Shown: positions 20,137 to 34,173 of the stretch, in pieces | Layout of the letters: each line of letters starts with the position of its first letter | Numbering within the stretch: the stretch's first letter is position 1 | From: Bacteroidota bacterium | GTDB taxonomy: Bacteria; Bacteroidota; Bacteroidia; Bacteroidales; UBA7960 | Assembly: GCA_018335675.1 (NCBI GenBank) | Contig: JAGXRQ010000050.1 | Coordinates: forward strand, 1-34,173 | Direction: 5' to 3' | DNA: 34,173 nucleotides | Position numbers and translations under genes: made by a program | The notes under the pieces: model-generated | Seen by the model: the letters and a program-made list of their open reading frames with translations, nothing else | Database searches by the model: none | What the model was told of the DNA's origin: nothing

Positions 20137-23100
20137 ATGAAAAAATTATTACTAATGCTGCTATTTGCAGCCATTTTTGTCTCTGTTAAATCTCAAAACA
20201 TTCTTGTATTAGATGAACCTTGTGGAGTATCTGACACTCCATATATTGAGGCATTAGAAAATTTAAATCTTACCTACCAGGCTGCAAATCTTGATAACAT
20301 TGTAACTTATTTAGAGTCAGGCACATGGGACTTGGTTATTTATTCAGAATATAGTAGTGGTATAAGTAATAGCATTATGGATGCTCTTAATGAACATCTT
20401 GAATCCGGAGGAAAATTAATATTCTCTTCTTGGGAGATTATTGAAGGACATATTTTGTTTGAGAAGGTGGGTGTTGAAATAATATCAAATTTTACTACTC
20501 CGTACAGTATGTATATATGGGCTCAAAGTAACCTTCTAAATACTCCTAATTCAATTTTGGAAATCCCTAATCCGTCCTTGGATCCTTGTCATTCTGATGG
20601 TTTCAGGCTTAATGCAATTAATGGAGCAACGGTTGTTGCCGGTTTTGTGTACGAAGATTTTACAGCAGATTATGGTGCAATTGTTATAAATGCAGAAGAA
20701 ACCTCAATTTTTATGGGACAAGTTCCATATATGTGGACTAGCGAAGACATTGTTCCATTATTGGAAAACCAAATTTTCTTTCTTTTGTTTAATAATATTT
20801 TGTCTTGGACTGGAGCAGAGGACAATGACTGGTTTAATCCTAACAACTGGGAAGACATAGACGGATTAAACGCCACTCCCAATGAGGAAACAAGCTGTAT
20901 AATTCCAAGTGTACCTTCTGGAAATCCGGACAATTTCCCTGTGATAAACCAACCCGGAGCTATTTGCTTTTTTCTCAAAATAGAAGAACAAGCAAACCTA
21001 AACATTAATCAAGGACAAGAATTAATGGTTTATAATTTTTTCTTTAATATGAGTAGCAATTCTACCGGCTTGGGAAAAGTTGTTTTAATTTCCGGTGGTG
21101 CAAAAGGAACAATAACCAACTTAGAAATTAACACTGAAACTTTTTGCTTTCTTTCAGGAACGACTAACATAGATAACCTAAATATATTTGCCGGTAATCT
21201 GAAACTAAACTTTACTGATTTAACAATCAATGAATCACTCACCGGTTTAACAAATAACATTTATTCAACCAAAAGAACAAAAATGAATTTGGGCTTTGAT
21301 TTTGATATCTCTGAAAATATCTCTGAATTATATTCCCTAATTGTTAATGGAAATGCGAATATGACATCTGACCTTAAGGTTTATTCAGATTTAATTATTG
21401 ACGGTAATATTGTGGTTAATAACAATACACTCTCGTTTGGGAGTTATTTTGAAGGGCAACTAGTAACCGACATTACTTCAAATTTGTTTATTTTCGACTC
21501 AGAACTTCATAATATCAAATCAAATACTGAATACAAAAAAGTTAAAACGAAATATAGTTCTCCAAGAACTAAAAACTGTGGTGCACCTAAAGATTTTGTA
21601 TTTATACCTAATACAAAAAACATAAAAGCAGCACCAGACTTTACTATTCCACCTATTACACTTAATAGTTTGAAAATCAAGAGAAATAGTGAAATAACTT
21701 TTGAACCAACGCAGTATATTTTCAATAATTTTGAAATTATTAAAGGAAATATTGTTGATAATATTGGCACTCAAATAGTTATTAATGAGAACTTTGTGAA
21801 TTATGGACAATTCTTACAACAGGGCACTTTGAAATTTTCAGGAGAAAATCAAAGCGAATTTTCAACATATTATTACGAAAATGCTACTGGTGGTCTGGAG
21901 AACCCGATTTACAATTCTCCTTATTATTATAACCAGGGTGGGTTTTTGTTTAAAGTAAATGAAGCAATAACATTAAAATCTTTCAAAATATTTGCAGAAA
22001 ATACCGGAAATATCAATGTTTCTGTTTATGATGAAGATTATGACATAACATTTTATGATGAAACATACTCTGTTTCCGAAATAGGCGAACAAAGATTAAA
22101 TATTGATAATTTCTATTTGGAACCAGGCATTTACTATTTATGGTGGTCTGGTGTGTCATTACAATTTGATTATGACGATGATGAAGCAAAAAGTTTCTTT
22201 CCAATAACTGTAGGAAACGATTACATTATTATTCTCAATGATGGATGGGATTGGCCCTACGAATATATGTCTCTTTATGATTGGGAATATGAAATTGAGC
22301 TTCAAGGAAATAATAATTTTGAATATGTTATAAATTCAAAGGAGAATAATGGAGTTTTGAATTTTGCTAATGAAATATTGATAGAAAATAGCTTTACACA
22401 TATTTCAGGAACGCTTACAGGCGAAGATATTAATTACGCTCCTGAAGCATTTTTAATGTATGCCAATACAGACGATGTTACCACAACCTCTATTGAGTTT
22501 TCAAATTGCAATAATCTTACTATTATGGGAGGTGGGAATGTTTTCCTCCACGAGGACAAAACAATTCTTAGTATGCTCGAACTTAACAATGGCGTTTTGA
22601 TACTTGACGATGTTGAATTGTTGCTAGGTCCTAATGTTGACATAATGGGTGGTGCAGGAAATTCTATGGTTGCAACTCATGGAACAGGAAAATTGTCAAG
22701 AATAACTCCTTCAAATGGAGAATATTTCTTCCCGATTGGAAATGTTGATGAAATGAATTCTTATGCTCCTGTTAGTATGAACATTTCAAATATGGTAAGA
22801 GTTTTTGAGCCAATCATAAGCGTTAGAACGGTAAATGAAAAACATCCTGAAAATGTTTCTGAAACTCATTTTCTTAATCGTTATTGGGTTGTTGAGGATA
22901 ATAATATGGCAAGTTATGATTGCGATATTCAATTTGATTTTAGTAATAGCGACTTACAAGGCTTATCTGTCTGGATGAATGCAGTTTCTTGGGATGCTGA
23001 TGCCGGAGAATGGGTTGTTTCGGGAATAGTTAATCCAACATCATTAAGTTATTCTGTTGCAGATGAGGAAATAAGCACTTTTTATACCGGAATTTCTAAG

Positions 23101-24591
23101 CAAACTCATTTAGTGGAAATTTTCGTTATTGATGGAATATCTGAGGAGGCCTTTGAAAATGCACAAGTAATAATTTACGACGGTGTAAATGAAATTATTC
23201 AATTTACAGATGAAAATGGTTATGTATTCTTCAATATAATTCCTGGGGTTTACAGCATCTCTGTTTTATCAGAGTGTTATGATGATGTTATTGTTTCAGA
23301 TATTGATATTTCTGAAGATTTTTCAAACACTTATGAATTATTCCTTACATTCTACCTGATTCCTGTTGCATTTGCCGGAGATGATGATGTTGTTTGCGGA
23401 AATGAGTATACTTTATCAGCAGTTGATCCTGATCCAATTACTGGAACATGGTCGGTGGTAAGTGGATCAGCAACAATAGAAAGTCCAAGCAGCCCAAGCA
23501 CATTAGTAACAGCTTCTGCATTTGGAGTTGTAACTTTCAAATGGACAGTTGTTGACGGCTATTGTGAGGACGAAGATGAAGTTTCAATTACATTTAAAGA
23601 AATTCCTGTTGCATTTGCCGGAGATGATAATGTTGCGTGCGGATATGAATATGTATTGTCAGCCTCTGATCCCGGTCCATTTATGGGAACATGGTCGGTG
23701 GTAAGTGGATCAGCAACAATAGAAAGTCCAAGCAGCCCAAGCACATTAGTAACAGCATCTGCCTATGGAGTTGTAACTTTCAAATGGACAGTTACTGAGG
23801 GTCTTTGTGATGACGAAGATGAGGTTTCAATTACATTTAAAGAAATTCCTGTTGCATTTGCCGGAGATGATGATATTGTTTGCGGAAATGAGTATACTTT
23901 ATCAGCAGTGGATCCTGGGCCACTTACTGGAACATGGTCAGTGGTAAGTGGATCGGCAACAATAGAAAGTCCAAGCAGCCCAAGCACATTAGTAACAGCT
24001 TCTGCCTTTGGAGTTGTAACTTTCAAATGGACAGTTGCTGATGGTATTTGTGAGGATGATGATGAGGTTTCAATTACATTTAAAGAAATTCCTGTTGCTG
24101 ATTTTGATTTTACTGCTAATAATTTGCAAGTTACTTTTACTAATACTTCTCAAAGCGCAAATTCATATATATGGGACTTTGGTGATGAATCAGATACTTC
24201 TGAAGAAGTAAACCCTGTTCACTCTTATGCACAAGCAGGCGGCTATACTGTGACTCTGACAGCCTCAAAAGATGGTTGTTCGGATGAGTATTCGGAATTA
24301 ATAAATGTTACTTATGTAAATATTGTGGATGTTTTACTAGAAAATATTACGATATATCCAAATCCTACAAATGGAAAGGTTATTATTGATTTCTTACCAA
24401 CATCTTCTACTTTAAATGTTAAGATGATAGAAGTAACTGACATTTATGGAAGAATTATAGAACAGCATCAATTTGTTGATTTTGCAGCTAATCAATTTGA
24501 AGTAGATCTTAATGGGTATGCAGCAAATGTATATATTTTGAAAGTTTATGTTGGTGAAAATATATTACAACATAAAATCATTAAGCGTTGA
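20137..24591 (+). CDS. Large T9SS-secreted surface protein with repeats and PKD domain
   Basis: 1484 aa. A signal peptide (1-19, LLLMLLFAAIFVSVKSQ) is followed by a segment with GATase/ThuA-like sequence (about 20-125: ILVLDEPCG, SGGKLIFSSWE), a long beta-rich region with WFNPNNWED typical of Bacteroidota secreted proteins, a carboxypeptidase-regulatory-like Ig domain (about 989-1072: ENAQVIIYDG, FTDENGYVFFNIIPGVYSI), three 81-residue repeats (1075-1317), a PKD domain (about 1318-1390: NSYIWDFGDES, VNPVHSYAQAGGYTVTLTA), and a C-terminal type A sorting domain beginning ITIYPNPTNGKVIIDF and ending KIIKR. It should cross the outer membrane through the type IX system and be anchored or released. 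An adhesin or matrix role is inferred; no enzymatic motif was seen. Confidence 0.93.
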   Translation: MKKLLLMLLFAAIFVSVKSQNILVLDEPCGVSDTPYIEALENLNLTYQAANLDNIVTYLESGTWDLVIYSEYSSGISNSIMDALNEHLESGGKLIFSSWEIIEGHILFEKVGVEIISNFTTPYSMYIWAQSNLLNTPNSILEIPNPSLDPCHSDGFRLNAINGATVVAGFVYEDFTADYGAIVINAEETSIFMGQVPYMWTSEDIVPLLENQIFFLLFNNILSWTGAEDNDWFNPNNWEDIDGLNATPNEETSCIIPSVPSGNPDNFPVINQPGAICFFLKIEEQANLNINQGQELMVYNFFFNMSSNSTGLGKVVLISGGAKGTITNLEINTETFCFLSGTTNIDNLNIFAGNLKLNFTDLTINESLTGLTNNIYSTKRTKMNLGFDFDISENISELYSLIVNGNANMTSDLKVYSDLIIDGNIVVNNNTLSFGSYFEGQLVTDITSNLFIFDSELHNIKSNTEYKKVKTKYSSPRTKNCGAPKDFVFIPNTKNIKAAPDFTIPPITLNSLKIKRNSEITFEPTQYIFNNFEIIKGNIVDNIGTQIVINENFVNYGQFLQQGTLKFSGENQSEFSTYYYENATGGLENPIYNSPYYYNQGGFLFKVNEAITLKSFKIFAENTGNINVSVYDEDYDITFYDETYSVSEIGEQRLNIDNFYLEPGIYYLWWSGVSLQFDYDDDEAKSFFPITVGNDYIIILNDGWDWPYEYMSLYDWEYEIELQGNNNFEYVINSKENNGVLNFANEILIENSFTHISGTLTGEDINYAPEAFLMYANTDDVTTTSIEFSNCNNLTIMGGGNVFLHEDKTILSMLELNNGVLILDDVELLLGPNVDIMGGAGNSMVATHGTGKLSRITPSNGEYFFPIGNVDEMNSYAPVSMNISNMVRVFEPIISVRTVNEKHPENVSETHFLNRYWVVEDNNMASYDCDIQFDFSNSDLQGLSVWMNAVSWDADAGEWVVSGIVNPTSLSYSVADEEISTFYTGISKQTHLVEIFVIDGISEEAFENAQVIIYDGVNEIIQFTDENGYVFFNIIPGVYSISVLSECYDDVIVSDIDISEDFSNTYELFLTFYLIPVAFAGDDDVVCGNEYTLSAVDPDPITGTWSVVSGSATIESPSSPSTLVTASAFGVVTFKWTVVDGYCEDEDEVSITFKEIPVAFAGDDNVACGYEYVLSASDPGPFMGTWSVVSGSATIESPSSPSTLVTASAYGVVTFKWTVTEGLCDDEDEVSITFKEIPVAFAGDDDIVCGNEYTLSAVDPGPLTGTWSVVSGSATIESPSSPSTLVTASAFGVVTFKWTVADGICEDDDEVSITFKEIPVADFDFTANNLQVTFTNTSQSANSYIWDFGDESDTSEEVNPVHSYAQAGGYTVTLTASKDGCSDEYSELINVTYVNIVDVLLENITIYPNPTNGKVIIDFLPTSSTLNVKMIEVTDIYGRIIEQHQFVDFAANQFEVDLNGYAANVYILKVYVGENILQHKIIKR
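23359..24087 (+). repeat. Three tandem 243-bp repeats inside the T9SS protein gene
   Basis: Units at 23359-23601, 23602-23844 and 23845-24087 each encode 81 residues starting IPVAFAGDD. Each contains GTWSVVSGSATIESPSSPS and ends with EVSITFKE. Copies 1 and 2 are identical over a 71-base run in mid-unit, where copy 3 differs by only two bases, whereas other parts vary. This pattern fits recent duplication or gene conversion. Confidence 0.95.
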
Positions 24592-24630
24592 TAGCTTAAA
24601 GTTTTTTAATTATTGATTGTGCTTTGTTAT

Positions 24631-24680
24631 AAGTTTTTTATGTATGTTTGACCGAGAAATCAAACATACATAAAAAACTT
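24631..24680. promoter_or_regulatory. Perfect 21-bp inverted repeat directly before the glutamine synthetase gene
   Basis: The arm at 24631-24651 is exactly complementary to the arm at 24660-24680, with an 8-base loop (CCGAGAAA). The right arm ends 4 bases before the ATG at 24685. If transcribed whole, it would form a long AU-rich hairpin over the ribosome-binding region. However, TATGTTTG (24643-24650), an exact TAnnTTTG match, lies within the left arm. If it is the -7 element, transcription starts in or near the loop and the repeat would act as an operator DNA site. There is no T-run after the stem, so it is not a typical terminator. Confidence 0.75.
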
Positions 24681-24684
24681 TGAC

Positions 24685-26187
24685 ATGAGTGACATATTTA
24701 AACTAAATCCGAATCCACTGGTTAAATATTTGCAAAAGCCTGCCAGTGAGTTTACTAAAGCAGATATTATTCGCTACATTGAAGATCACGAGATCGAAAT
24801 GCTTAATTTTCGCTATGTTGGCGGAGATGGTCGTTTGAAAACTTTGAACTTTATTATTCAAGGTAAAAATCATTTAGATAGCATACTTTGTACCGGTGAG
24901 CGTGTTGATGGAAGCAGTCTGTTCAATTTTCTAGAAGCAGGCTCTAGCGACCTTTATGTGGTGCCCCGCTTTAAAACAGCCTTTCTTAATCCTTTTTCAG
25001 AAATTCCTTGTATCGACATTCTTTGCTCATATTATGATAAAGAAGGAAAGCCCCTGTCAAGTTCTCCTGAAAATATTATGAGAAAAGCTCATCAGGCTCT
25101 GGTTGAAAAAACCGGGTATAGCCTTGAAGTTATGGGAGAGATAGAATATTACGTTATTAGTGAAAAGGATGATTTGTTTAAAGCAACAGATCAAAAAGGA
25201 TATCACGAATCTGAACCTTTTGTAAAGTGGGAAAAACTCCGCGTTGATGCTATGATGGCTATGGCTCAAACAGGTGCAAATATCAAGTATTCTCACTCTG
25301 AAGTAGGTAATTTTACAGATGATGAGCATGAATACGAACAAAATGAAATTGAATTTTTGCCGACCAATATTGAAGATGCTGCAGATCAGCTGATTATCGC
25401 GAAGTGGATTTTGAGGCATGTTGCATATCAGTATGGTGTAACCGTTAGTTTTGCTCCTAAGATTACTGCAGGTAAAGCAGGTAGCGGAATGCATTTTCAT
25501 ATGCGCCCTATGAAAGACGGCAAAAATGTGACCCTTGAAAATGGCAAAATCAGCGATGTTTCTAAAAAAGTTATTGCCGGTATTCTGGATTTAGCTCCCG
25601 CTCTTTCTGCCTTTGGAAACACTATTCCAACAAGTTATTTCAGGCTGGTTCCCCACCAGGAAGCACCAACAAATGTGTGCTGGGGTGAAAGAAACCGCTC
25701 AGCTTTGATTAGAGTTCCTCTGGGATGGGTAGGTGCTAGCGATATGGTTAAATGTGCAAATCCGCTAGAAGCTCCAACAAATAAAGATTTTAGCGATAAG
25801 CAAACTTTTGAGTTCCGCTGCCCCGATGGTTCAGCAGATATCTATCTTATGATTGCAGGTCTTTGTGTTGGCGCAAGACACGGCTTCGAAATGCCCAATG
25901 GACTTGAATTTGCTCAACAAACCTACATAGATGTCAATATTTTTGACGAAAAACATAAATCTAGACAAGAAAAATTGGCTCAATTGCCATTTTCTTGCAA
26001 AAAAGCTGCAGAGTATCTAAAAGAAAAAGCAGAAGTTTTTAAACAGCACGGAGTATTTACAGATAGCCTGATTGAAGGAACCGCGAAAAAACTTCTCGAC
26101 TTTAATGATGAAAATCTTAGAGAAAAGATTTCCTGCAATAAGGAAGAAACTATGAAGCTGGTTAGAAGGTATTTACACTGTGGTTAA
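24685..26187 (+). CDS. glnA: Glutamine synthetase (GlnA-type)
   Basis: ATP-dependent amidation of glutamate with ammonia; the main ammonium-assimilating enzyme, cytoplasmic and probably a dodecamer. 500 aa. Motifs follow GS order: a beta-grasp N-terminal part with LCTGERVDGSSLF, metal ligands E152/E154 in GEIEYYV, NEIEFLP with further glutamates, H270 in GSGMHFHM, R338 in NRSALIRVP, and FEFRCPDGSADIYL. It is shorter than GSIII (about 700 aa) and nearer GSI. The adenylylation-site tyrosine region of enteric GSI is not recognisable. A relative that ligates other amines cannot be excluded. The 21-bp inverted repeat before its ATG suggests specific regulation. Confidence 0.88.
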   Translation: MSDIFKLNPNPLVKYLQKPASEFTKADIIRYIEDHEIEMLNFRYVGGDGRLKTLNFIIQGKNHLDSILCTGERVDGSSLFNFLEAGSSDLYVVPRFKTAFLNPFSEIPCIDILCSYYDKEGKPLSSSPENIMRKAHQALVEKTGYSLEVMGEIEYYVISEKDDLFKATDQKGYHESEPFVKWEKLRVDAMMAMAQTGANIKYSHSEVGNFTDDEHEYEQNEIEFLPTNIEDAADQLIIAKWILRHVAYQYGVTVSFAPKITAGKAGSGMHFHMRPMKDGKNVTLENGKISDVSKKVIAGILDLAPALSAFGNTIPTSYFRLVPHQEAPTNVCWGERNRSALIRVPLGWVGASDMVKCANPLEAPTNKDFSDKQTFEFRCPDGSADIYLMIAGLCVGARHGFEMPNGLEFAQQTYIDVNIFDEKHKSRQEKLAQLPFSCKKAAEYLKEKAEVFKQHGVFTDSLIEGTAKKLLDFNDENLREKISCNKEETMKLVRRYLHCG

Positions 26188-26221
26188 TTAGCAAACGTGC
26201 TTAAGCCACAATTGACTTGAT

Positions 26222-27184
26222 TTATTTTATTTTCTCCCATTTTACATGCTGGGGTTTTCTTGGCCAAAAAAAGAAAAACCCCAGCATTGTTGTTATATCA
26301 CGCAGGAAATAATATGGTATTCTTGCAAAAAACTCATAAAAGGGTCGGTTTTTCTGTATTGCTGATTTTAAAAATGTTGCAACTAAATATCCCAACAATA
26401 CATACATATTGTCGGAAGCAAAGGAAAGTATTAGACAGAATATCAGGCATATAAGTGTGTATTCCCTACCAATAATTATTGGCCACATATATTTATCAAA
26501 AAAATGCCTTCTGTAAAGCAAAGGTCTGGCATACAGCTGAGTACGATTGAAAATCATTTTCCACAATCGCCTGGGGTGATGATATAAAATTGTATAATGT
26601 GTCGATACTATCTCCTCCAGGTATTTAATTCTTACTCCGCTGTTTTTAAGCCTTAATGTAAGGTCGTAATCTTCACCTCCGGGTTTTTTATATCTTTCAT
26701 CAAAACCACTTACAGAATCAAAAGTTTTCTTATCAATTACAAACCATCCTGTTGCAGTTTTGAAAGCACTGTTTGTTAAATCATATCTTTTTTTGAAAGT
26801 CTTACCGGTTTTTTTATCAAAATAACTATTATTATGAGGTCCGGTAAAAAAAACACCGCTTTTGTTATGATATTCCTCAATTGCTTTTTTCAAGAAATCG
26901 GGGTTAATTACGTTGTCTCCATCAATAAAAAACAATAAATCGTAACAAGCATTTTTGGCCCCTAAATTCCTGCCTGAAGCCGGACTCTGGCCTTTGTAAA
27001 TGTTGTAAATTGATACTTCCGGAAACTTCTTAACCAGATCTATTGTGTTGTCTGAAGAATTTGAATCAACATAAATTATCTCATATTTATCAATATCAGC
27101 ATAATGAATAGAGTCATATACGCCTTTAATACATTTTTCAATGTGGCTGCTTTCGTTTTTTCCGATAATTATGAAGGATACCAT
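26222..27184 (-). CDS. GT2 family glycosyltransferase with C-terminal membrane segments
   Basis: 320 aa. GT-A fold: nucleotide-binding VSFIIIGKNESSHIEKCI at the start, YVDSNSSDNT near 39-47, and the metal-binding motif D88-G-D90 in FFIDGDNV. GGEDYDLTLRLKNSG is the acceptor-side ED motif region. Two hydrophobic stretches follow (about 240-275), suggesting membrane association. It is the last gene of the minus-strand glycan cluster, 6 bases after the preceding gene. The sugar and acceptor are not predictable from sequence. Confidence 0.88.
   Translation of the reverse strand: MVSFIIIGKNESSHIEKCIKGVYDSIHYADIDKYEIIYVDSNSSDNTIDLVKKFPEVSIYNIYKGQSPASGRNLGAKNACYDLLFFIDGDNVINPDFLKKAIEEYHNKSGVFFTGPHNNSYFDKKTGKTFKKRYDLTNSAFKTATGWFVIDKKTFDSVSGFDERYKKPGGEDYDLTLRLKNSGVRIKYLEEIVSTHYTILYHHPRRLWKMIFNRTQLYARPLLYRRHFFDKYMWPIIIGREYTLICLIFCLILSFASDNMYVLLGYLVATFLKSAIQKNRPFYEFFARIPYYFLRDITTMLGFFFFWPRKPQHVKWEKIK
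26246..26287. other. 13-bp hairpin inside the 3' end of the terminal glycosyltransferase gene
   Basis: ATGCTGGGGTTTT (26246-26258) is perfectly complementary to AAAACCCCAGCAT (26275-26287), and the stem can extend 3 bp past a one-base bulge. It lies 58-100 bases after the glutamine synthetase stop codon and within the last codons of the convergent gene. There is no T-run on either side. It could stall polymerase or protect the 3' end of the glycan transcript, or it may reflect the encoded GFFFFWPRKPQH. Confidence 0.55.
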
Positions 27185-27190
27185 AAAGAA

Positions 27191-28129
27191 TTAATATCGT
27201 TTGCCGAATCTCTTTTTCTTGTAATCGGCGATTGCCAAAGTTATTGATTTTATAACACTTGGCAACCTCTTTTTGTTTAATGAATGCAGCACAGCCGATA
27301 AAATGTAAATGCCGATTTTTTTATATCGTAAAAGACTAAAATAGAACTTATTGGAAGTGTTGTTTAAATATGTTTTTGTGAAAAGAGCAAAATTTCTTAT
27401 GGTATAATATGTGTAAAAAACAGACCAGTTTATGTTTGTCGCTGTTTTTATATGATGAACAATAATATCAGGAAAAACAATAGAAGGAAATTTTTTTAGC
27501 CAACCTCTCATACATAAATCGGCCTCTTCATAATAGATGTAGTATTTTTCATCTATCAAACCGGTTGCTTTAAGCAAACCTGTATTCACCATCATAAAGC
27601 ATCCACTAACAAAATCTACATATCGAAAATCTGTTTCAGGGTAATTTAAGGCTGTTTTATTGCGCAACTTGTTGAAATACTTTCCTTTAAGTGATTGTTT
27701 TTTAAAAAGAATCTGACCGTCGTTAACTAATAATTGATCTTTTCCTTCCAATATTTTAACTCCAAAGGCGAAAATGCTTTTATCAGAAAAACCACGAATT
27801 CTTTTCACTAAATGGCTGATAGTGTCGCTGTTAACCAGCAGGGTGTCGTTGTCTAGTGTTAATATATAATCAGCGTTTTGATTTATGGCCGATTTAAATC
27901 CAATATTGCGGGCGTTGGCTAATCCGATATTTTCATTGTTTTTAATAATGTTAATCTGAGGATAGTTGTTGGTGATAAATTCTATTGAACCATCATTTGA
28001 GCCATTATCTATAATTTCAATTTTTAAATTTTCGTAGTCTTGCGTAATTAAAAGCGGTATGCATTTCTTAAGCAACTCCAATCCGTTCATATTTAGAACC
28101 TGTGCAATGATATATGGCTGCTTATTCAT
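27191..28129 (-). CDS. GT2 family glycosyltransferase (rhamnosyltransferase-like)
   Basis: 312 aa. GT-A domain with IIDNGSNDGSIEF (about 39-51), NENIGLANARNIGF (about 65-78), and metal motif D93-N-D95 in LTLDNDTLL. YYEEADLCMRGWLKKFP is the characteristic downstream segment of WbbL-type transferases, many of which add rhamnose to lipid-linked glycans; rhamnose is a guess here. The start codon overlaps the stop of the GT4 gene as ATGA (28126-28129), so translation is coupled. Confidence 0.88.
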   Translation of the reverse strand: MNKQPYIIAQVLNMNGLELLKKCIPLLITQDYENLKIEIIDNGSNDGSIEFITNNYPQINIIKNNENIGLANARNIGFKSAINQNADYILTLDNDTLLVNSDTISHLVKRIRGFSDKSIFAFGVKILEGKDQLLVNDGQILFKKQSLKGKYFNKLRNKTALNYPETDFRYVDFVSGCFMMVNTGLLKATGLIDEKYYIYYEEADLCMRGWLKKFPSIVFPDIIVHHIKTATNINWSVFYTYYTIRNFALFTKTYLNNTSNKFYFSLLRYKKIGIYILSAVLHSLNKKRLPSVIKSITLAIADYKKKRFGKRY

Positions 28130-29325
28130 TGTTTAAGTAATTGATTATAAACCTCTTTAAGATATTCTGCAAAAGCATCGATTGTATGGTTATTAACTAC
28201 AAAATCTCTTCCTGCCTTTGCAAGTTTATTGCAAATTTCAGGATTATCAATCAGGTATTCAATTTTTGAAGCAAGTTCTTTGGCGTTGAAATCAGTTTTG
28301 ATTGAAAATTCCGGACTGGCAAATCCGGCAGAGCTCTTTATGTCTGTTGTAATCAGAGCATTTTCGCATGAAAGAGCTTCAAGCGTTGATTGCTCCGGAA
28401 AACTTCCAAAAGAAGCTAAACTACAGAAAACTTTACTTTTTGAAAAGACCTCAAATGGATTATCAGTAAATCCGAAAACCATCTTATTTTCCAAACCACT
28501 TGCGTTTAAAAATCTGACAACCTGTTTTTTAAGATTTCCATTTCCGTATATTTCAAATGATATATCATCTCTTTTGGATAGGATAATTTTTGCTGCTGCT
28601 AGAAATAGCAGTGGATTTTTATACTTGTCTAATCTTGCTAAAAAAACCACCTTGTTTTCTTTATTTGCATAAATAGACTTTGAATAATCTGTAAATGAAC
28701 ATGGTGCAATAAAGTGTTTTTTGTTTTCCGGAAAAACATTATTGTTTTTCAAAACAGATAAATATGGTTCACATTGAAGCTCAACAGCATCGGCAATATT
28801 TATTGAAGCAGGTAGGTAGCTCGGATTATTTCTATAAAAACGATTTTTTAAGAAACGGCCTACAGGCTCAACATACGAAAGTAAAAACTTTATATCAGGG
28901 TTTCTTTTTTTTATATGGGCGCATTCTGTAATACCCTCCCAAAATGCATGAATTAGTTGAATATCATATTTGACGATGATATTATTCAGCTTTGAAGAAT
29001 ATCTTTTAAGCAAGTAGGGATAAGCAAAAAATGAAATTATTTTATAATTGGTTACCAGGCTTTTGGCTTTTAAATGGAGTTTGCCTAACAAAGAAGTAGA
29101 ATCTGACAAAGGATTTAATACTATTACATTAGAATGATTTGCCAGTGTTGGAAATTGTTTAATAAGGGCATTATACTTTTCTCTGGAAAGTATAAGATAC
29201 AAATTTTGTATCAACTTATTATCAGTTGCATACATAAAGAAATTGGTGAAGCGTTTTTCCGCCCCACCAATTCCAGTGCCCCCAAGGGCAACAATTGCAA
29301 TATTTTTACGGAGCTGTTCTAACAC
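28126..29325 (-). CDS. GT4 family glycosyltransferase
   Basis: 399 aa, GT-B fold. The N-terminal glycine-rich ALGGTGIGGAEKRFTNF matches the acceptor-side loop of GT4. The C-terminal Rossmann half holds VVFLARLDKYKNPLLFL and the retaining-enzyme donor motif around SFPEQSTLEALSCENALI with the EX7E-type glutamates. The start codon is GTG at 29325, because no ATG precedes the conserved glycine loop. It overlaps the end of the SUMF1-like gene by 20 bases in another frame, implying coupled expression despite their different predicted locations. Confidence 0.9.
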   Translation of the reverse strand: MLEQLRKNIAIVALGGTGIGGAEKRFTNFFMYATDNKLIQNLYLILSREKYNALIKQFPTLANHSNVIVLNPLSDSTSLLGKLHLKAKSLVTNYKIISFFAYPYLLKRYSSKLNNIIVKYDIQLIHAFWEGITECAHIKKRNPDIKFLLSYVEPVGRFLKNRFYRNNPSYLPASINIADAVELQCEPYLSVLKNNNVFPENKKHFIAPCSFTDYSKSIYANKENKVVFLARLDKYKNPLLFLAAAKIILSKRDDISFEIYGNGNLKKQVVRFLNASGLENKMVFGFTDNPFEVFSKSKVFCSLASFGSFPEQSTLEALSCENALITTDIKSSAGFASPEFSIKTDFNAKELASKIEYLIDNPEICNKLAKAGRDFVVNNHTIDAFAEYLKEVYNQLLKQ

Positions 29326-30985
29326 CTCTACCGCCGTTTTGCCAGGAGTCTAGCCTGAAATTTCTTAGATTGTTTATATCTTGTCTTTCAGAAATTCTTA
29401 TGCTTCTAACATTTAGATTAAATGCTCCACCTCTGAAGCCAATTCTGATAGGCCAATTCCCTGCAACAGTATTTGGGTCGCCGGTTGCGTTAAGATTTCC
29501 ACTGCCATGCATTCCTGTATAAGAGCGACTTGCCATTGAAGTTCCATTGCTTACAGAAACAGCCATTTCCACAAGGTTTCCACTTAGCTCCATAACGCCG
29601 TAATACGAGGCTCCTGATGTAAGTCTGTTAGAGCTCGAAGTTGCAAAAATGCCACTACGATATGGACCATTGGCTATAAATGTTGGTAACATGAAAGCTG
29701 CATTAGCATTTGAAGGATTAATTATATACTCGTTGATTCTATTTACATTTCCTTGATTATTTATTGGATTAGCTACTCTAATAGCATCGGTATATAATCC
29801 GCCTCCTGCCCAAATATCTAGGCCAGCGGGTTGTCCGGCGCCTCTGGCTGCCTTTTCAAACTCCAGCTCTGTCATAGGGCGAAGTCCTGCCCAGTAAAGG
29901 TAAGCTTGAAGATCTGTATATATGGTTGTAGCATTAGCTCCTAGAAAATTGCAAGGCAAATGTTGTCCGTCGTCAGCCTCATTGGCTATACCATTACCAT
30001 TAACATCGCAATAAAAGAACAGACGCTCAGTTGTTCCAATACCATCTGTATGCACTCTTATTCCGTTTCTGTAGCTTTCTCCGGCGCCACTAATACGAAC
30101 AGTTGTCGTATTAGTCATTACATAAACGTTGGTAATACTTGAGCCCGACACATCAGTAAATGTTCGTCTGTTTTGTTGAGTTCTGGTAAGAGTGTTTAGG
30201 AAATCAACATATTGCTTTTGAGTAATTTCGTTTTTCATAATGTAAAAAGCATTGTATCCCTTAGGATATGCAGCCGGAAGGGTTTGTGTAGTTGAAGAAT
30301 CGAAATCATCTAAATTGCCATGTGTTGAATTGCTATTATTGTGATTCCCTAAATTTCCATCTGCAGCTGCTCCTGATCCGCCCAGAGTAATAACATCCTC
30401 ATTGTTTACCAAATATGGAGTTGTGAATGTTCCGTCGGTCATTATGCGATGAAATTGCTTTCTTACTTCTGCAGTGGAGCCATCATTCCCAAGATAAAAA
30501 CTTCCCTGAGGAATATAAACCATTTCTATTGCAAAAACTCTTATTTCAATATCAGTAAAATCTGTCACACTATCAAACCCATAGTCCCATCTTAATGCTA
30601 CATCTTGCCAATTATTTGTGCCACTTCCGTTTTCACTTCTGAAAAGAAATGCACCTTTTCTGTCGGAAGGAATAGAAACAGCAGCTCCAACAGGTACAGT
30701 ATGCCCCGCAAGACGCATAGTGCCATGCTTCCATAGATTATCAGTGCTCTTAAATTTAATAAATACCCATGCAGCATCATAGTTGTATGGCTCTGCATTG
30801 CCAACACCTGCAATATCACATCTCCAACTATTGTCCCAGCTTATACTGAATTCAAGATCAACAGTTTCTGCAACTGTATTTATGTTTTTTAAAACAGGAA
30901 GTTTAGTAAACTTAATATCATTTGCAAATAATATAATCGGCAAACTGAATAATAACAAGAATACTAGTTTTAAAGATTTTTTCAT
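29306..30985 (-). CDS. Exported SUMF1 / formylglycine-generating-enzyme-fold protein, probably non-catalytic
   Basis: About 559 aa from the ATG at 30985; an in-frame ATG at 31006 would add 7 residues. The N-terminus is a clear signal peptide (KKSLKLVFLLLFSLPIILFAN). A beta-rich domain (about 20-165) precedes the SUMF1/FGE-sulfatase module, which opens with EMVYIPQGSFYLGND and continues with YIMKNEITQKQYVDFLNTL, LRPMTELEFEKAARG, GVMELSGNLVEMAVS and GFRGGAFNL. The paired active-site cysteines of sulfatase-activating FGE are missing: the C-terminal third has no cysteine, and the terminus reads GGRGVRT where family members usually have GFRCVRT. A binding or structural role outside the cytoplasm is more likely than oxidation of sulfatases. 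It sits inside a sulfotransferase/glycosyltransferase operon. Confidence 0.87.
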   Translation of the reverse strand: MKKSLKLVFLLLFSLPIILFANDIKFTKLPVLKNINTVAETVDLEFSISWDNSWRCDIAGVGNAEPYNYDAAWVFIKFKSTDNLWKHGTMRLAGHTVPVGAAVSIPSDRKGAFLFRSENGSGTNNWQDVALRWDYGFDSVTDFTDIEIRVFAIEMVYIPQGSFYLGNDGSTAEVRKQFHRIMTDGTFTTPYLVNNEDVITLGGSGAAADGNLGNHNNSNSTHGNLDDFDSSTTQTLPAAYPKGYNAFYIMKNEITQKQYVDFLNTLTRTQQNRRTFTDVSGSSITNVYVMTNTTTVRISGAGESYRNGIRVHTDGIGTTERLFFYCDVNGNGIANEADDGQHLPCNFLGANATTIYTDLQAYLYWAGLRPMTELEFEKAARGAGQPAGLDIWAGGGLYTDAIRVANPINNQGNVNRINEYIINPSNANAAFMLPTFIANGPYRSGIFATSSSNRLTSGASYYGVMELSGNLVEMAVSVSNGTSMASRSYTGMHGSGNLNATGDPNTVAGNWPIRIGFRGGAFNLNVRSIRISERQDINNLRNFRLDSWQNGGRGVRTAP

Positions 30986-31036
30986 ATCAGTAAAATTATG
31001 TTTCATATGTGGTTAAACGTGTTTCTAATTCATTCA

Positions 31037-31072
31037 CAAATATAATAAAAATTGTTGCCTCTAAAATACAAA
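31037..31072 (-). promoter_or_regulatory. Possible internal promoter before the SUMF1-like gene
   Basis: In the 89-base gap between the GT2 gene and the SUMF1-like gene, the minus strand reads TATATTTG (31037-31044), an exact -7 match, with TTTG at 31069-31072. The 24-base spacer is longer than usual. This would allow the last four genes to be expressed apart from the first four. Confidence 0.4.
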
Positions 31073-31095
31073 TGCAGATATTTATGCTGCATCTA

Positions 31096-31968
31096 TTATT
31101 TTCTTTTGCTACAGAATAGCAAATAATAAATTCCACTCAAAGCAGAATAGCTTATCATTTTATGTGAGAACAAATAATTAAAAAATCCTGAAATTTTTGG
31201 AAGTCCCTTTGGAATAGGTTTTTTGGGATAAATAAAGCTAAGAATAACAAGTTTTTTTAAAATATAAAATCTACTTCTTCCTTCAAATTGTAGTCTTTGG
31301 ACAAATCCAATTCCAGTTCTTTTTCTTTTTTTCAACAATCCCCAAAACCCTCTGCTTGGGTGCTTAACAACAGCCTGTTTAGAAAAAACCAATTTGCATC
31401 CATCGTTCACCGCTTTGTTTGTCCAGTAGGAGTCTCCGCCCGAAATCCATTCCGGAAATAATCCAAGTTTTTCAAACAACAATTTATTAACAAACAAATT
31501 TGCAGTAATGCCTGTGTTGTTACCTATATTAAATTCTTGCTGCAAATGAAACCTGCTGTCGAACGTATGAAAAAAAGAATTCTTTTTTATTAAAAACTCA
31601 ATATTGCCTCCAACCAAATCAGCATTCTTATCTATAATACAATTAATTCCAGCACACAACCAATCAGAATTCGGAATACAATCTGAATCTATAAATGCAA
31701 TAACATTTCCTTTTGAGATAGTTATGCCTTTGTTTCTCGCTGCATAAGAGCTTTTAAACTTATCTTCATTTAGTAAGACAACATTATACTCTTTTATTTT
31801 TTCAGGAATTTTGTCAGACAAATTATCAATAACAATTATTTCAGTCTTGTTTTTCGGATAATCCTGCTCTTTTAGAGCATTCAAACAAATAAAAAGATTT
31901 TCATAATCATTATACACAGGTATAATGACTGAAATATATGGCAGATTGCTATCTAATCCCTCTTTCAA
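31096..31968 (-). CDS. GT2 family glycosyltransferase
   Basis: 290 aa. Opens with ISVIIPVYNDYENLFICL (about 12-29), the GT2 nucleotide-binding strand. IVIDNLSDK, then YAARNKGITISKGNVIAFIDSDCIPN (75-100) carries the metal motif D94-S-D96, and WISGGDSYWTNKAVNDGCKLVFS is the downstream acidic segment. FSKQAVVKHPSRGFWGLLKKRKR is typical of GT2 enzymes that act on lipid-linked sugars. It begins 2 bases after the sulfotransferase gene, in one transcript. Specificity unknown. Confidence 0.88.
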   Translation of the reverse strand: MKEGLDSNLPYISVIIPVYNDYENLFICLNALKEQDYPKNKTEIIVIDNLSDKIPEKIKEYNVVLLNEDKFKSSYAARNKGITISKGNVIAFIDSDCIPNSDWLCAGINCIIDKNADLVGGNIEFLIKKNSFFHTFDSRFHLQQEFNIGNNTGITANLFVNKLLFEKLGLFPEWISGGDSYWTNKAVNDGCKLVFSKQAVVKHPSRGFWGLLKKRKRTGIGFVQRLQFEGRSRFYILKKLVILSFIYPKKPIPKGLPKISGFFNYLFSHKMISYSALSGIYYLLFCSKRK

Positions 31969-31970
31969 TT

Positions 31971-32735
31971 TTAAATGTATTTGTAATGTTTTAATAGGCT
32001 AACCACCTCATTATCTGACATTATTTCATCAATCAATTCTTTTTTAGCCGACATCCATTTTCCCACAGAAGTATTATTAATGGCTTCAACTTTTCCCCAC
32101 CAGGCTATATGTTCCACTATATTTGTCTTCTTGTTGAAATCAGAAAGGCTTATATCATTAACATCAATAAAAGCCAGAATTTTTTTTATTTCATATTCAA
32201 AGTTTTGAACAAAATCCTCATATCTAATTGTTAAAACACTCTCATTGTTTTCAAAATTCTTTGCTGCATTAACATCTTTTACCCATCTCTTTGAGCTAAT
32301 GTAATTTTCGCCATATATTGGATGTGAACTTAAAACAACGTCTCTGCAATCTCTAACAATGTTTATTATTTTTACCCTATTATTGAAATCCTCAAGTATT
32401 TCTTTAATATAATGAACATGCCGAGGTGTTTTCTCACACCATGTTTTTTTTCCTTTCGGAATATCTTGTTTTATTAAAAGAACAAAAACCTTGGTTAAAA
32501 TTTTTACAGAGTTTAAAAGCTTAAGCTTTTTCCGTTTTGTTCGCAGGTATATTTTTGTTTCTTTCGGAATTGAAAATATTTGAGGATGAGCGCCTAATAC
32601 CGCTTGAAGAATTGTAGTTCCGGAGCGCCCGCAGCCAACAATGAATATGGGTTCGCCTGAAAACCGTGTAACTCTTATCAGTGATATCAACCTTAACTCT
32701 CTGAAAAGACGCAATATTTTTTTAAAAATTTTCAA
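31971..32735 (-). CDS. Sulfotransferase family protein (PAPS-dependent), first of two types
   Basis: 254 aa. The 5'-phosphosulfate-binding loop is GCGRSGTT (34-41); the 3'-phosphate-binding motif is R128-D129 in NIVRDCRDVVLSSHP with S136. WCEKTPRHVHYIKEI (about 99-113) is the conserved segment between them. These features define PAPS-dependent sulfotransferases that move sulfonate from 3'-phosphoadenosine-5'-phosphosulfate to hydroxyl groups of sugars or lipids. It differs from its neighbour in the loop (GRSGTT versus MKAGTT), so the two are separate subfamilies, not a recent duplication. The surrounding glycosyltransferases suggest a glycan acceptor. Confidence 0.88.
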   Translation of the reverse strand: MKIFKKILRLFRELRLISLIRVTRFSGEPIFIVGCGRSGTTILQAVLGAHPQIFSIPKETKIYLRTKRKKLKLLNSVKILTKVFVLLIKQDIPKGKKTWCEKTPRHVHYIKEILEDFNNRVKIINIVRDCRDVVLSSHPIYGENYISSKRWVKDVNAAKNFENNESVLTIRYEDFVQNFEYEIKKILAFIDVNDISLSDFNKKTNIVEHIAWWGKVEAINNTSVGKWMSAKKELIDEIMSDNEVVSLLKHYKYI

Positions 32736-32752
32736 TTAAAATAATTTACAGA

Positions 32753-33562
32753 TTAAATACTCCAGTTTTTGTAGTTTTCAGTTGCTATAATTCTGAATTT
32801 GTTAATGTCAGACTTTAAATATGCTTTTATGTCAATTAATTGTTGCTCTTCAATAATAGGGTTTTCAATGGGTTTATTTGTGGTCATGATTGCTGGTAAA
32901 ACCGACATTAATAATTTCTTAATGCGCTCTGAATGAACAAGATTGTCTAATAATGATTTTGCTTTTTTGTCAGTAGATATATGATATCTTTGGTTTATGT
33001 TTTTTATGTTAACATTGCACGAAACACCAAGGAAATTGAAAATTCTATAAAGAACATCTTCTGTGCAAGCTAATAATTCTTCAGACTCAACAAACATTAT
33101 TTTATTTAACTCAAAGTATTTCAGGTATTCTTCGATTTGATAAAAGTACATTGAAGTTTTTAGATATATAGAGTCAGGTACAACCGCCTCTGCAAATGAT
33201 TTCTTTTCCCTACCTTGAGCTACATTGTGAATATAGTGTGAAATGGCTCTTTCTATAGGATCTCTAACAATGTAGATAAGCTTAACTTTTGGAATATCTT
33301 TATATATTCGAGCAGGAACACCCTCATATCTGTGCCTTTTTGAATAATTTGTGCTCGCCTCTCCATATGCTACAGCATCATTTTTTTTGAAAAGAGATGA
33401 ATACCTTGCTATTCCTTTTTTATATTCCTCACCCCCAAGGAAATAATTTGGTTCTTTTTCGGCAGACATACATATTTCGGGGTGACTATCAAGATAATGA
33501 TATAAGCTGGTTGTACCTGCTTTCATTGCTCCAATAACTAAAAAAGTTGGTAGTATAATCAT
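32753..33562 (-). CDS. Sulfotransferase (heparan-sulfate N/O-sulfotransferase-like)
   Basis: 269 aa. PAPS 5'-phosphosulfate loop IGAMKAGTTSLYHYLDSHP (10-28) with K14 as the likely catalytic lysine; KEPNYF at 36-41; and the 3'-phosphate-binding R100-D101-P102 in IYIVRDPIERAISHY, with S108. This set is the hallmark of the Sulfotransfer_1 family that includes heparan-sulfate and bacterial exopolysaccharide sulfotransferases. The start codon lies 3 bases after the ABC gene and the stop 17 bases before the second sulfotransferase, indicating cotranscription. Target hydroxyl unknown. Confidence 0.9.
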   Translation of the reverse strand: MIILPTFLVIGAMKAGTTSLYHYLDSHPEICMSAEKEPNYFLGGEEYKKGIARYSSLFKKNDAVAYGEASTNYSKRHRYEGVPARIYKDIPKVKLIYIVRDPIERAISHYIHNVAQGREKKSFAEAVVPDSIYLKTSMYFYQIEEYLKYFELNKIMFVESEELLACTEDVLYRIFNFLGVSCNVNIKNINQRYHISTDKKAKSLLDNLVHSERIKKLLMSVLPAIMTTNKPIENPIIEEQQLIDIKAYLKSDINKFRIIATENYKNWSI

Positions 33563-33565
33563 CTT

Positions 33566-34173
33566 TTAAATACTAAGCGTTACAAAGTCAGTAATATTTA
33601 TTGTTTTATGCGAAACGTAAATAATTGTTATACCATCAATTTTTCTAATGTTATGTAGTATTTCATTTTCTGTTTCAGCATCTACTTCAGATAGGGCTTC
33701 GTCAAGTATAAGCAGTTCAGGTTGTTGATATAATGCTCTGGCTAATCCTATTCTTTGGCGCTGCCCTCCTGAAATTTTTATCCCTCTTTCACCAATTTTT
33801 GAATGAAGACCCAAAGGAAGTGATTCAACAAAACTCTCGAGACATGATAATTGTATAGCTTCTTCACAAAGACTTAGATTTATATCAGAGGTGTTTTCTC
33901 CGGGAGCAATATTTTTAATTATGCTGGAATCAAAGAAAAATACATTTTGAGGCACATATCCAATTTTCTTTTGCCATAGGTTTAGATTTTCATACATGTT
34001 TTTCCCATCTATTAGTATTGTACCACTTTGAGGTTTTAAAATCCCGCAAATTATTTCTAATAGTGTGGTTTTGCCAATTCCCGACTTTCCTTCCAGCAAA
34101 TAGAAACCACCTTTCTTTATTTCAATGTTTTTATCTTTTAGTACATAGCTTTTTTTATCGGGATATTTGAAAC
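33566..34173 (-). CDS. ABC transporter ATPase domain (5' end beyond the window)
   Basis: Partial gene, C-terminal part only; the frame stays open to the right edge, where it reads KDKNIEIKKGGFYLLEGKSG. Nucleotide-binding domain motifs in order: Walker A GKSGIGKTT, Q-loop YVPQNVFFFD, ABC signature ISGGQRQR, Walker B LLILDEALSEVD, and the H-loop histidine in VSHKT. The NPFFFD/SIIKNIAPGE pattern resembles MsbA/PglK-type exporter domains with a fused membrane part, which would lie upstream outside the window. It is the first visible gene of the cluster, so it probably flips or exports the lipid-linked glycan. Confidence 0.9.
   Translation of the reverse strand, partial: FKYPDKKSYVLKDKNIEIKKGGFYLLEGKSGIGKTTLLEIICGILKPQSGTILIDGKNMYENLNLWQKKIGYVPQNVFFFDSSIIKNIAPGENTSDINLSLCEEAIQLSCLESFVESLPLGLHSKIGERGIKISGGQRQRIGLARALYQQPELLILDEALSEVDAETENEILHNIRKIDGITIIYVSHKTINITDFVTLSI

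Follow-up and report, generated by a model that had tools for sequence, protein, structure and literature searches.

The window analysed here (34,173 nucleotides; bases 1-34173 of the 102,115-bp contig C50 of a Bacteroidota genome, G000, of the family UBA7960) ends in a block of eight minus-strand genes that probably directs the synthesis and flipping of a short sulfated lipid-linked glycan. In transcription order, these genes encode an ATP-binding cassette (ABC) exporter, two predicted sulfotransferases dependent on 3'-phosphoadenosine 5'-phosphosulfate (PAPS; ST1 and ST2), a glycosyltransferase (GT) of family GT2 (GT2c), an exported protein with the fold of formylglycine-generating enzyme (FGE), a GT4 glycosyltransferase, and two further GT2 glycosyltransferases (GT2b and GT2a); the family assignments of all eight proteins are backed by Pfam. 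The sulfated-glycan reading is based on the tight same-strand layout, the protein families, the PAPS-site residues of both sulfotransferases, PAPS-synthesis genes elsewhere in the genome, the match of the exporter to PglK, and clusters in three other genomes (G004, G096 and G296). Few bacterial loci for sulfated glycans have been characterised, and this one is compact and closed on both sides.

In the proposed pathway, the three GT2 enzymes and the GT4 enzyme would assemble sugars on a lipid carrier at the cytoplasmic side, ST1 and ST2 would add sulfate to the glycan with PAPS as donor (supplied by CysD, CysN and CysC encoded on another contig), and the PglK-like single-polypeptide ABC protein would flip the sulfated lipid-linked oligosaccharide across the inner membrane to the periplasm, where a putative ligase encoded outside the block might then place it on lipid, lipopolysaccharide or protein. 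We infer the order of synthesis, sulfation and flipping, as well as any role of the FGE-fold protein.

Sulfotransferases, exporter and PAPS supply

Among solved structures, those nearest to ST1 belong to a bacterial sulfotransferase (3rnl) and to heparan-sulfate 3-O/N-sulfotransferases (3-OST-5, E 3.1e-16); ST1 aligns with the 3-OST and NDST structures over ~180 residues and keeps their key residues; unlike these enzymes, it is bacterial and presumably cytosolic. In an alignment of ST1 with one homologue from each of seven of the eight other genomes with ST1 homologues, K14, G16, T17, E37, R100 and S108 are invariant (8 sequences) and match the corresponding residues of 3-OST-5, which we take to be the 5'-phosphosulfate loop, the active-site Glu (E37) and the 3'-phosphate site (Arg/Ser). 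For ST2, the stretch R37-S-G-T-T41 as well as E59, R128 and S136 are invariant among eight aligned sequences; the R-S-G-T-T loop and R128/S136 presumably represent the 5'-phosphosulfate loop and the 3'-phosphate Arg/Ser. Judged from these alignments, loop and Arg/Ser pair are kept in both proteins, and by Pfam families and nearest solved structures the two are clearly different from each other. Two such unlike sulfotransferases, one of them of the heparan-sulfate type, are possible enzymes for glycan sulfation, and the acceptors of both would be glycans. A search with PF03567 gave no match, and none in the controls either; the PHROGs search gave one weak match for ST2, to unknown function, and no other match.

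The ABC gene continues beyond the right edge of the window, where its remainder had been expected, and is complete there; its product of 565 amino acids comprises one membrane and one ATPase domain (Pfam: ABC_membrane, ABC_tran), i.e. a half-size exporter. Similarity to PglK (WlaB) of Campylobacter jejuni spans residues 5-559 (E 5.8e-68), from which the protein is naturally read as a putative flippase, with lipid-linked oligosaccharide as its presumed substrate. Unlike the PglK locus, the block has neither a pgl oligosaccharyltransferase nor pgl sugar genes beside the ABC gene, but sulfotransferases instead.

For the supply of PAPS, a cysC gene (adenosine 5'-phosphosulfate (APS) kinase) adjoins CysD-like and CysN-like genes on another contig of the same genome (C18; L034:6863-9659). 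A PAPS/APS reductase was not found in the genome (PF01507), the only other match being weak and partial (E 3.9e-4); sulfation is therefore the evident use of PAPS, and sulfate activation in this organism may serve sulfation only. A search for PF00884 sulfatases, which was positive for 10 of the 14 controls, gave no match in this genome, whose completeness the tool puts at 98%. A six-frame search with PF03781 missed the FGE-fold protein of the window that was found by hmmscan, and the same caution, that weak and split matches can escape, covers the absence of PAPS/APS reductase and of PF00884. In a genome with PAPS genes in which neither reductase nor sulfatase was found, sulfation could be read directly from the use of 35S-PAPS.

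A third sulfotransferase is encoded elsewhere in the genome (C17; L035:8448-12104), beside a B12-binding/radical-SAM protein and a BtrH_N/DUF4872 protein, and looks like part of a small-molecule or lipid pathway.

Layout of the block and related clusters

The original prediction, made on the window alone, had described eight minus-strand genes, among them four glycosyltransferases, two distinct PAPS sulfotransferases and a SUMF1-fold protein with signal peptide, and all of these were recovered: the eight open reading frames (ORFs) fill positions 26222-34173, the last one extending past the right edge, and by Pfam the glycosyltransferases are three GT2 and one GT4. The junctions, from the ORF coordinates in transcription order, measure +3, +17, +2, +89, -20, -4 and +6 bp; gaps or overlaps of a few bases, as described, thus apply to most junctions (-20 to +17), but not to the gap of 89 bp, the longest of the block, which lies directly upstream of the FGE-fold gene. 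A match to TTTG-N24-TAnnTTTG lies inside this gap; the pattern had been widened to reach that match, and its matches across the window are at chance level (5 found vs 4.2 expected). Counts from promoter and terminator scans were likewise near chance (39 vs 36.1 and 7 vs 4.5). At its left, the block is bordered by glnA and at its right, beyond the window, by rplM-rpsI-rpsB-tsf-pyrH-frr (gene names by inspection), all on the plus strand; since these lie on the opposite strand, they close off the block at either end.

Homologues of the FGE-fold protein were found in 15 of 98 genomes, the own genome included. The gene order sought in relatives was partly recovered, in G004 (same family, other genus), which keeps the order ABC, FGE-fold, GT4 and GT2a, with identities of 33.6%, 43.5%, 28.1% and 48.6% to the respective counterparts. 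Between the FGE-fold and GT4 genes of G004, on the opposite strand, lies a Sulfotransfer_3 gene (E 6.7e-20) that is not an orthologue of ST1 or ST2, so the two clusters share a frame but not the sulfotransferase; the same interval also gave a weak GNAT match (E 0.0071) and a weak polysaccharide-deacetylase match (E 3.8e-4), both under the Pfam cut-off. Homologous clusters without sulfotransferases in all relatives had been named as contrary evidence; the sole homologous cluster found, that of G004, holds one. The rplM-tsf operon adjoins the cluster in both genomes, at opposite ends (here on the rplM side, in G004 after tsf). No ABC, FGE-fold or sulfotransferase gene was detected (phmmer, with references from this analysis) in the rplM-side stretches of 26 genomes, out of 30 in the family (not counting the own genome and G004) in which rplM was matched; several of these stretches are short, the shortest ~1 kb, and the tsf side was not fetched.

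In G096, which belongs to another family, a unit of ST2 homologue, sulfotransferase, ABC and GT4 is present (L101; Pfam) on a contig of 5 kb that lacks an FGE-fold gene. A second genome of that genus, G296, repeats this layout (L122), as judged by similarity to the G096 proteins (GT4 by inspection), likewise with no FGE-fold gene on the stretch. Five genomes of the order have GT2a homologues within exopolysaccharide-type clusters (by inspection), and one of the five has a sulfotransferase-like gene.

Sulfated capsule or exopolysaccharide clusters are described for Vibrio sp. KMM 8419 (PMC11641403), for Synechocystis (synechan xss; PMC13125312) and for Pontiella (PMC7356697). As far as the available portions of these reports go, the block resembles them in holding glycosyltransferases and sulfotransferase(s) together, with PAPS as donor; export genes are included in the first two. 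Going by the same portions, the block differs in having a single-polypeptide PglK-like flippase rather than Wzx/Wzy or ABC export of the KpsMT type, in its exported FGE-fold protein, and in the location of cysDNC elsewhere. No Wzx/Wzy, Wza/Wzc or KpsMT-type family was found by Pfam among the eight proteins. Literature searches on sulfotransferase clusters, SUMF1/FGE proteins, tyrosine sulfotransferases, and sulfotransferase with PglK found this gene set undescribed among the matches listed, mostly from non-subscription journals; the last of these topics gave no paper. The block adds a member to the known bacterial sulfation clusters, and the FGE-fold protein is its odd member.

The FGE-fold protein and its family

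The FGE-fold protein begins with a signal-peptide-like stretch (by inspection, and as an N-terminal helix in the model) and has no lipobox Cys (by inspection). Its AlphaFold2 model (predicted local distance difference test (pLDDT) score 80, predicted template-modelling score 0.87) consists of a beta-sandwich at residues ~28-160 followed by the FGE fold. The VIA Z scores of the model range from 18.2 to 16.9, for CalU17 (Z 18.2, root-mean-square deviation 3.5, 229 residues aligned), FGE 6muj (Z 17.9, 3.3, 233 aligned), EgtB, PvdO (Z 17.5) and PorK (Z 16.9), where rows within 1 Z count as tied. The N-terminal domain alone (pLDDT 92) reached Z values of at most 6.3, with adhesin beta-sandwiches; as these are below the tool's guide value of 8, no fold was assigned to it.

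The protein had been called cysteine-less, which proved incorrect for the whole chain: Cys is present at positions 63, 333 and 352 only, and none was found from 353 to 566. The catalytic Cys pair of FGE, which we take to lie near the C-terminus, would fall after residue 352. In a family alignment of 54 members (53 of the 76 full-length relatives, chosen as the best 60 by score minus seven, mostly near-duplicates, plus the window protein), 35 rows have Cys at position 333 and 33 rows have it at position 352, hence these two residues may be structural. PorK of the type IX secretion system (T9SS) shares the FGE fold and is argued, in the accessible part of PMC12421860, to be structural and non-catalytic, without the two catalytic cysteines. 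The FGE-fold protein is best seen as non-catalytic, like PorK; it most likely serves in the cell envelope, in structure or in binding, and is kept with the cluster. Unlike PorK/GldK, it is encoded outside a gldK-N operon, lacks the lipobox Cys and has an N-terminal beta-sandwich of its own; a GldK-like copy (name by inspection) is present elsewhere in the genome (C18; L052).

The genomic surroundings of the family were explored in 78 GTDB loci (L128-L205) from the best 80 of 492 candidates; many of these are short contigs and the neighbour profiles were built from the sequences of this analysis, so neighbours may have been missed. A sulfotransferase was found near the family gene in one of the 78 loci (L133, apparently the contig of G004), and ABC and GT matches were both present in L133 and L170 only, the ABC protein of L170 being soluble and ABC-F-like by inspection. 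An exported protein with a (Q)YxGGxGxG(D) start (hereafter YxGGxGxG protein) adjoins the family gene in 35 of 77 of these loci, and the motif is present in none of 424 ORFs of control loci; the 35/77 count is descriptive, since the pattern was chosen after examples had been seen. Among ten hand-picked partners (e.g. L147:9430-10122 and L156:5227-5907), eight carry a T9SS sorting tail at E <= 0.01, seven of them above the Pfam cut-off. The records of the paired loci are titled Bacteroidetes/Bacteroidales, Ignavibacteriae, Omnitrophota, Chloroflexi and others; by inspection, no YxGGxGxG protein adjoins the FGE-fold gene here or in G004. Handling of the glycan by the SUMF1-fold protein, as originally proposed, is not supported: in the fetched loci, the family lies mostly outside glycan loci.

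Two further candidate roles were considered. As an abundant, O-glycosylated acceptor the protein is unsupported: in codon adaptation it ranks only at the 61st percentile among 133 ORFs, and the Bacteroidota O-glycosylation motif occurs once (vs 1.8 in shuffles) and is absent from the G004 protein. The FGE/C-type-lectin fold is a usual target of diversity-generating retroelements; this candidate was rejected, with no direct repeat of at least 40 bp in 24000-34173 and, by inspection, no reverse transcriptase among the listed ORFs of the window (no genome-wide search was made).

Alternative readings and neighbouring genes

Several observations weigh against a pathway for a sulfated glycan. The best solved relatives of the ST2 profile (8 sequences) are the protein-tyrosine sulfotransferases TPST1 and TPST2 (E 2.4e-14), and the invariant E59 of ST2 is not placed on the Glu of TPST in the profile alignment. 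Eukaryotic ABCB transporters score like PglK against the ABC protein, two ABCB4 sequences slightly higher, and no nucleotide-sugar, initiating-transferase, polymerase or ligase gene was found by Pfam among the eight block proteins (the genome was not searched for a ligase). The cluster is rare: ST1 homologues were found in 9 of 98 genomes (2 of 47 in the own family) and ST2 homologues likewise in 9 of 98 (1 of 47), and across the order in 8 of 393 at E 1e-15, with the own genome included in each count. The cysDNC genes are not located between glnA and rplM, i.e. the PAPS-synthesis genes sought beside the block lie outside the cluster, and the available text of PMC11641403 names such genes within the cluster as a hallmark of sulfated-polysaccharide clusters. 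The TPST match would fit an alternative in which ST2 sulfates protein tyrosine or a secreted peptide in the manner of RaxST, with the ABC protein exporting the product, but this is unlikely: the ABC exporter of the Rax system carries a peptidase domain, whereas only membrane and ATPase domains, and no peptidase domain, were found by Pfam in the ABC protein of the block, and four glycosyltransferases surround ST2. Moreover, Sulfotransfer_3 also includes, according to the part of PMC11625862 at hand, the glycolipid sulfotransferase NodH, so the fold of ST2 does not decide its acceptor. Synthesis and export of a sulfated glycan is thus the part of the original prediction that we retain, supported by PAPS-site motifs, PAPS genes and a PglK-like exporter; the term 'polymer' is not, there being no polymerase, ligase or Wzx/Wzy among the eight proteins.

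For the FGE-fold protein, the chances are about even that it stands outside the glycan pathway, belonging instead to a broad family of exported proteins with ties to type IX secretion or to the structure of the surface, and possibly having a promoter of its own. The single sulfotransferase among the family loci, the frequent YxGGxGxG partners with their T9SS tails, the 89-bp gap upstream of the gene, and the structural nature of PorK in the text available of PMC12421860 favour such a bystander, while its ABC, GT4 and GT2a neighbours in conserved order in G004, and the lack of an adjacent YxGGxGxG protein here and in G004 (by inspection), argue for a link to the cluster. It appears rather unlikely that the protein is dedicated to the sulfated surface glycan, as its receptor or as a factor in its assembly or anchoring, with glycan synthesis and the T9SS-linked family forming one system in some Bacteroidales; if the protein did act on the glycan, this would be a glycan-linked role for a fold already repurposed in PorK. 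An active formylglycine-generating or copper/iron enzyme that counterbalances sulfation, as the Pfam family name and the fold might suggest, is very improbable, and a role as formylglycine enzyme or in sulfatase maturation was rejected: the catalytic Cys are missing, with no Cys beyond residue 352, and no PF00884 sulfatase was found in the genome.

The features of the block are summarized in Table 1. On the same contig, ~24 kb from the ABC gene, Wza-like and Wzc-like export genes are located (L033:11331-14558, i.e. C50:59330-62557), followed by a very large ORF. Adjoining glnA, positions 20137-24591 of the window encode an exported protein of 1484 amino acids with PKD domains and a T9SS sorting tail (Pfam).

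Table 1. Genes of the block, with window positions unless stated otherwise
Feature	Position	Strand	Family evidence and remarks
GT2a, GT2 glycosyltransferase, 320 aa	26222..27184	-	PF00535 E 4.5e-19; C-terminus probably membrane-bound (by inspection)
GT2b, GT2 glycosyltransferase, rhamnosyltransferase-like, 312 aa	27191..28129	-	PF00535 E 2.2e-15; TIGR01556 E 6.9e-18, under curated cut-off
GT4 glycosyltransferase, 399 aa, start codon uncertain	28126..29325	-	PF00534 E 6e-20
Exported two-domain protein, 566 aa, N-terminal beta-sandwich and C-terminal FGE/SUMF1 fold	29306..31006	-	PF03781 (FGE-sulfatase) E 1.4e-9
GT2c, GT2 glycosyltransferase, 290 aa, TTG start as called	31096..31968	-	PF00535 E 6.9e-23
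ST2, predicted PAPS sulfotransferase, 254 aa, TTG start as called	31971..32735	-	Sulfotransfer_3/1; PF13469 E 3.2e-24
ST1, predicted PAPS sulfotransferase, heparan-sulfate 3-OST/NDST type, 269 aa	32753..33562	-	Sulfotransfer_1/3; PF00685 E 5.3e-17
ABC exporter, PglK/ABCB type, C-terminal part in window (whole protein 565 aa)	33566..34173 (whole gene C50:33566-35263)	-	ABC_tran (33566-34171 in window)

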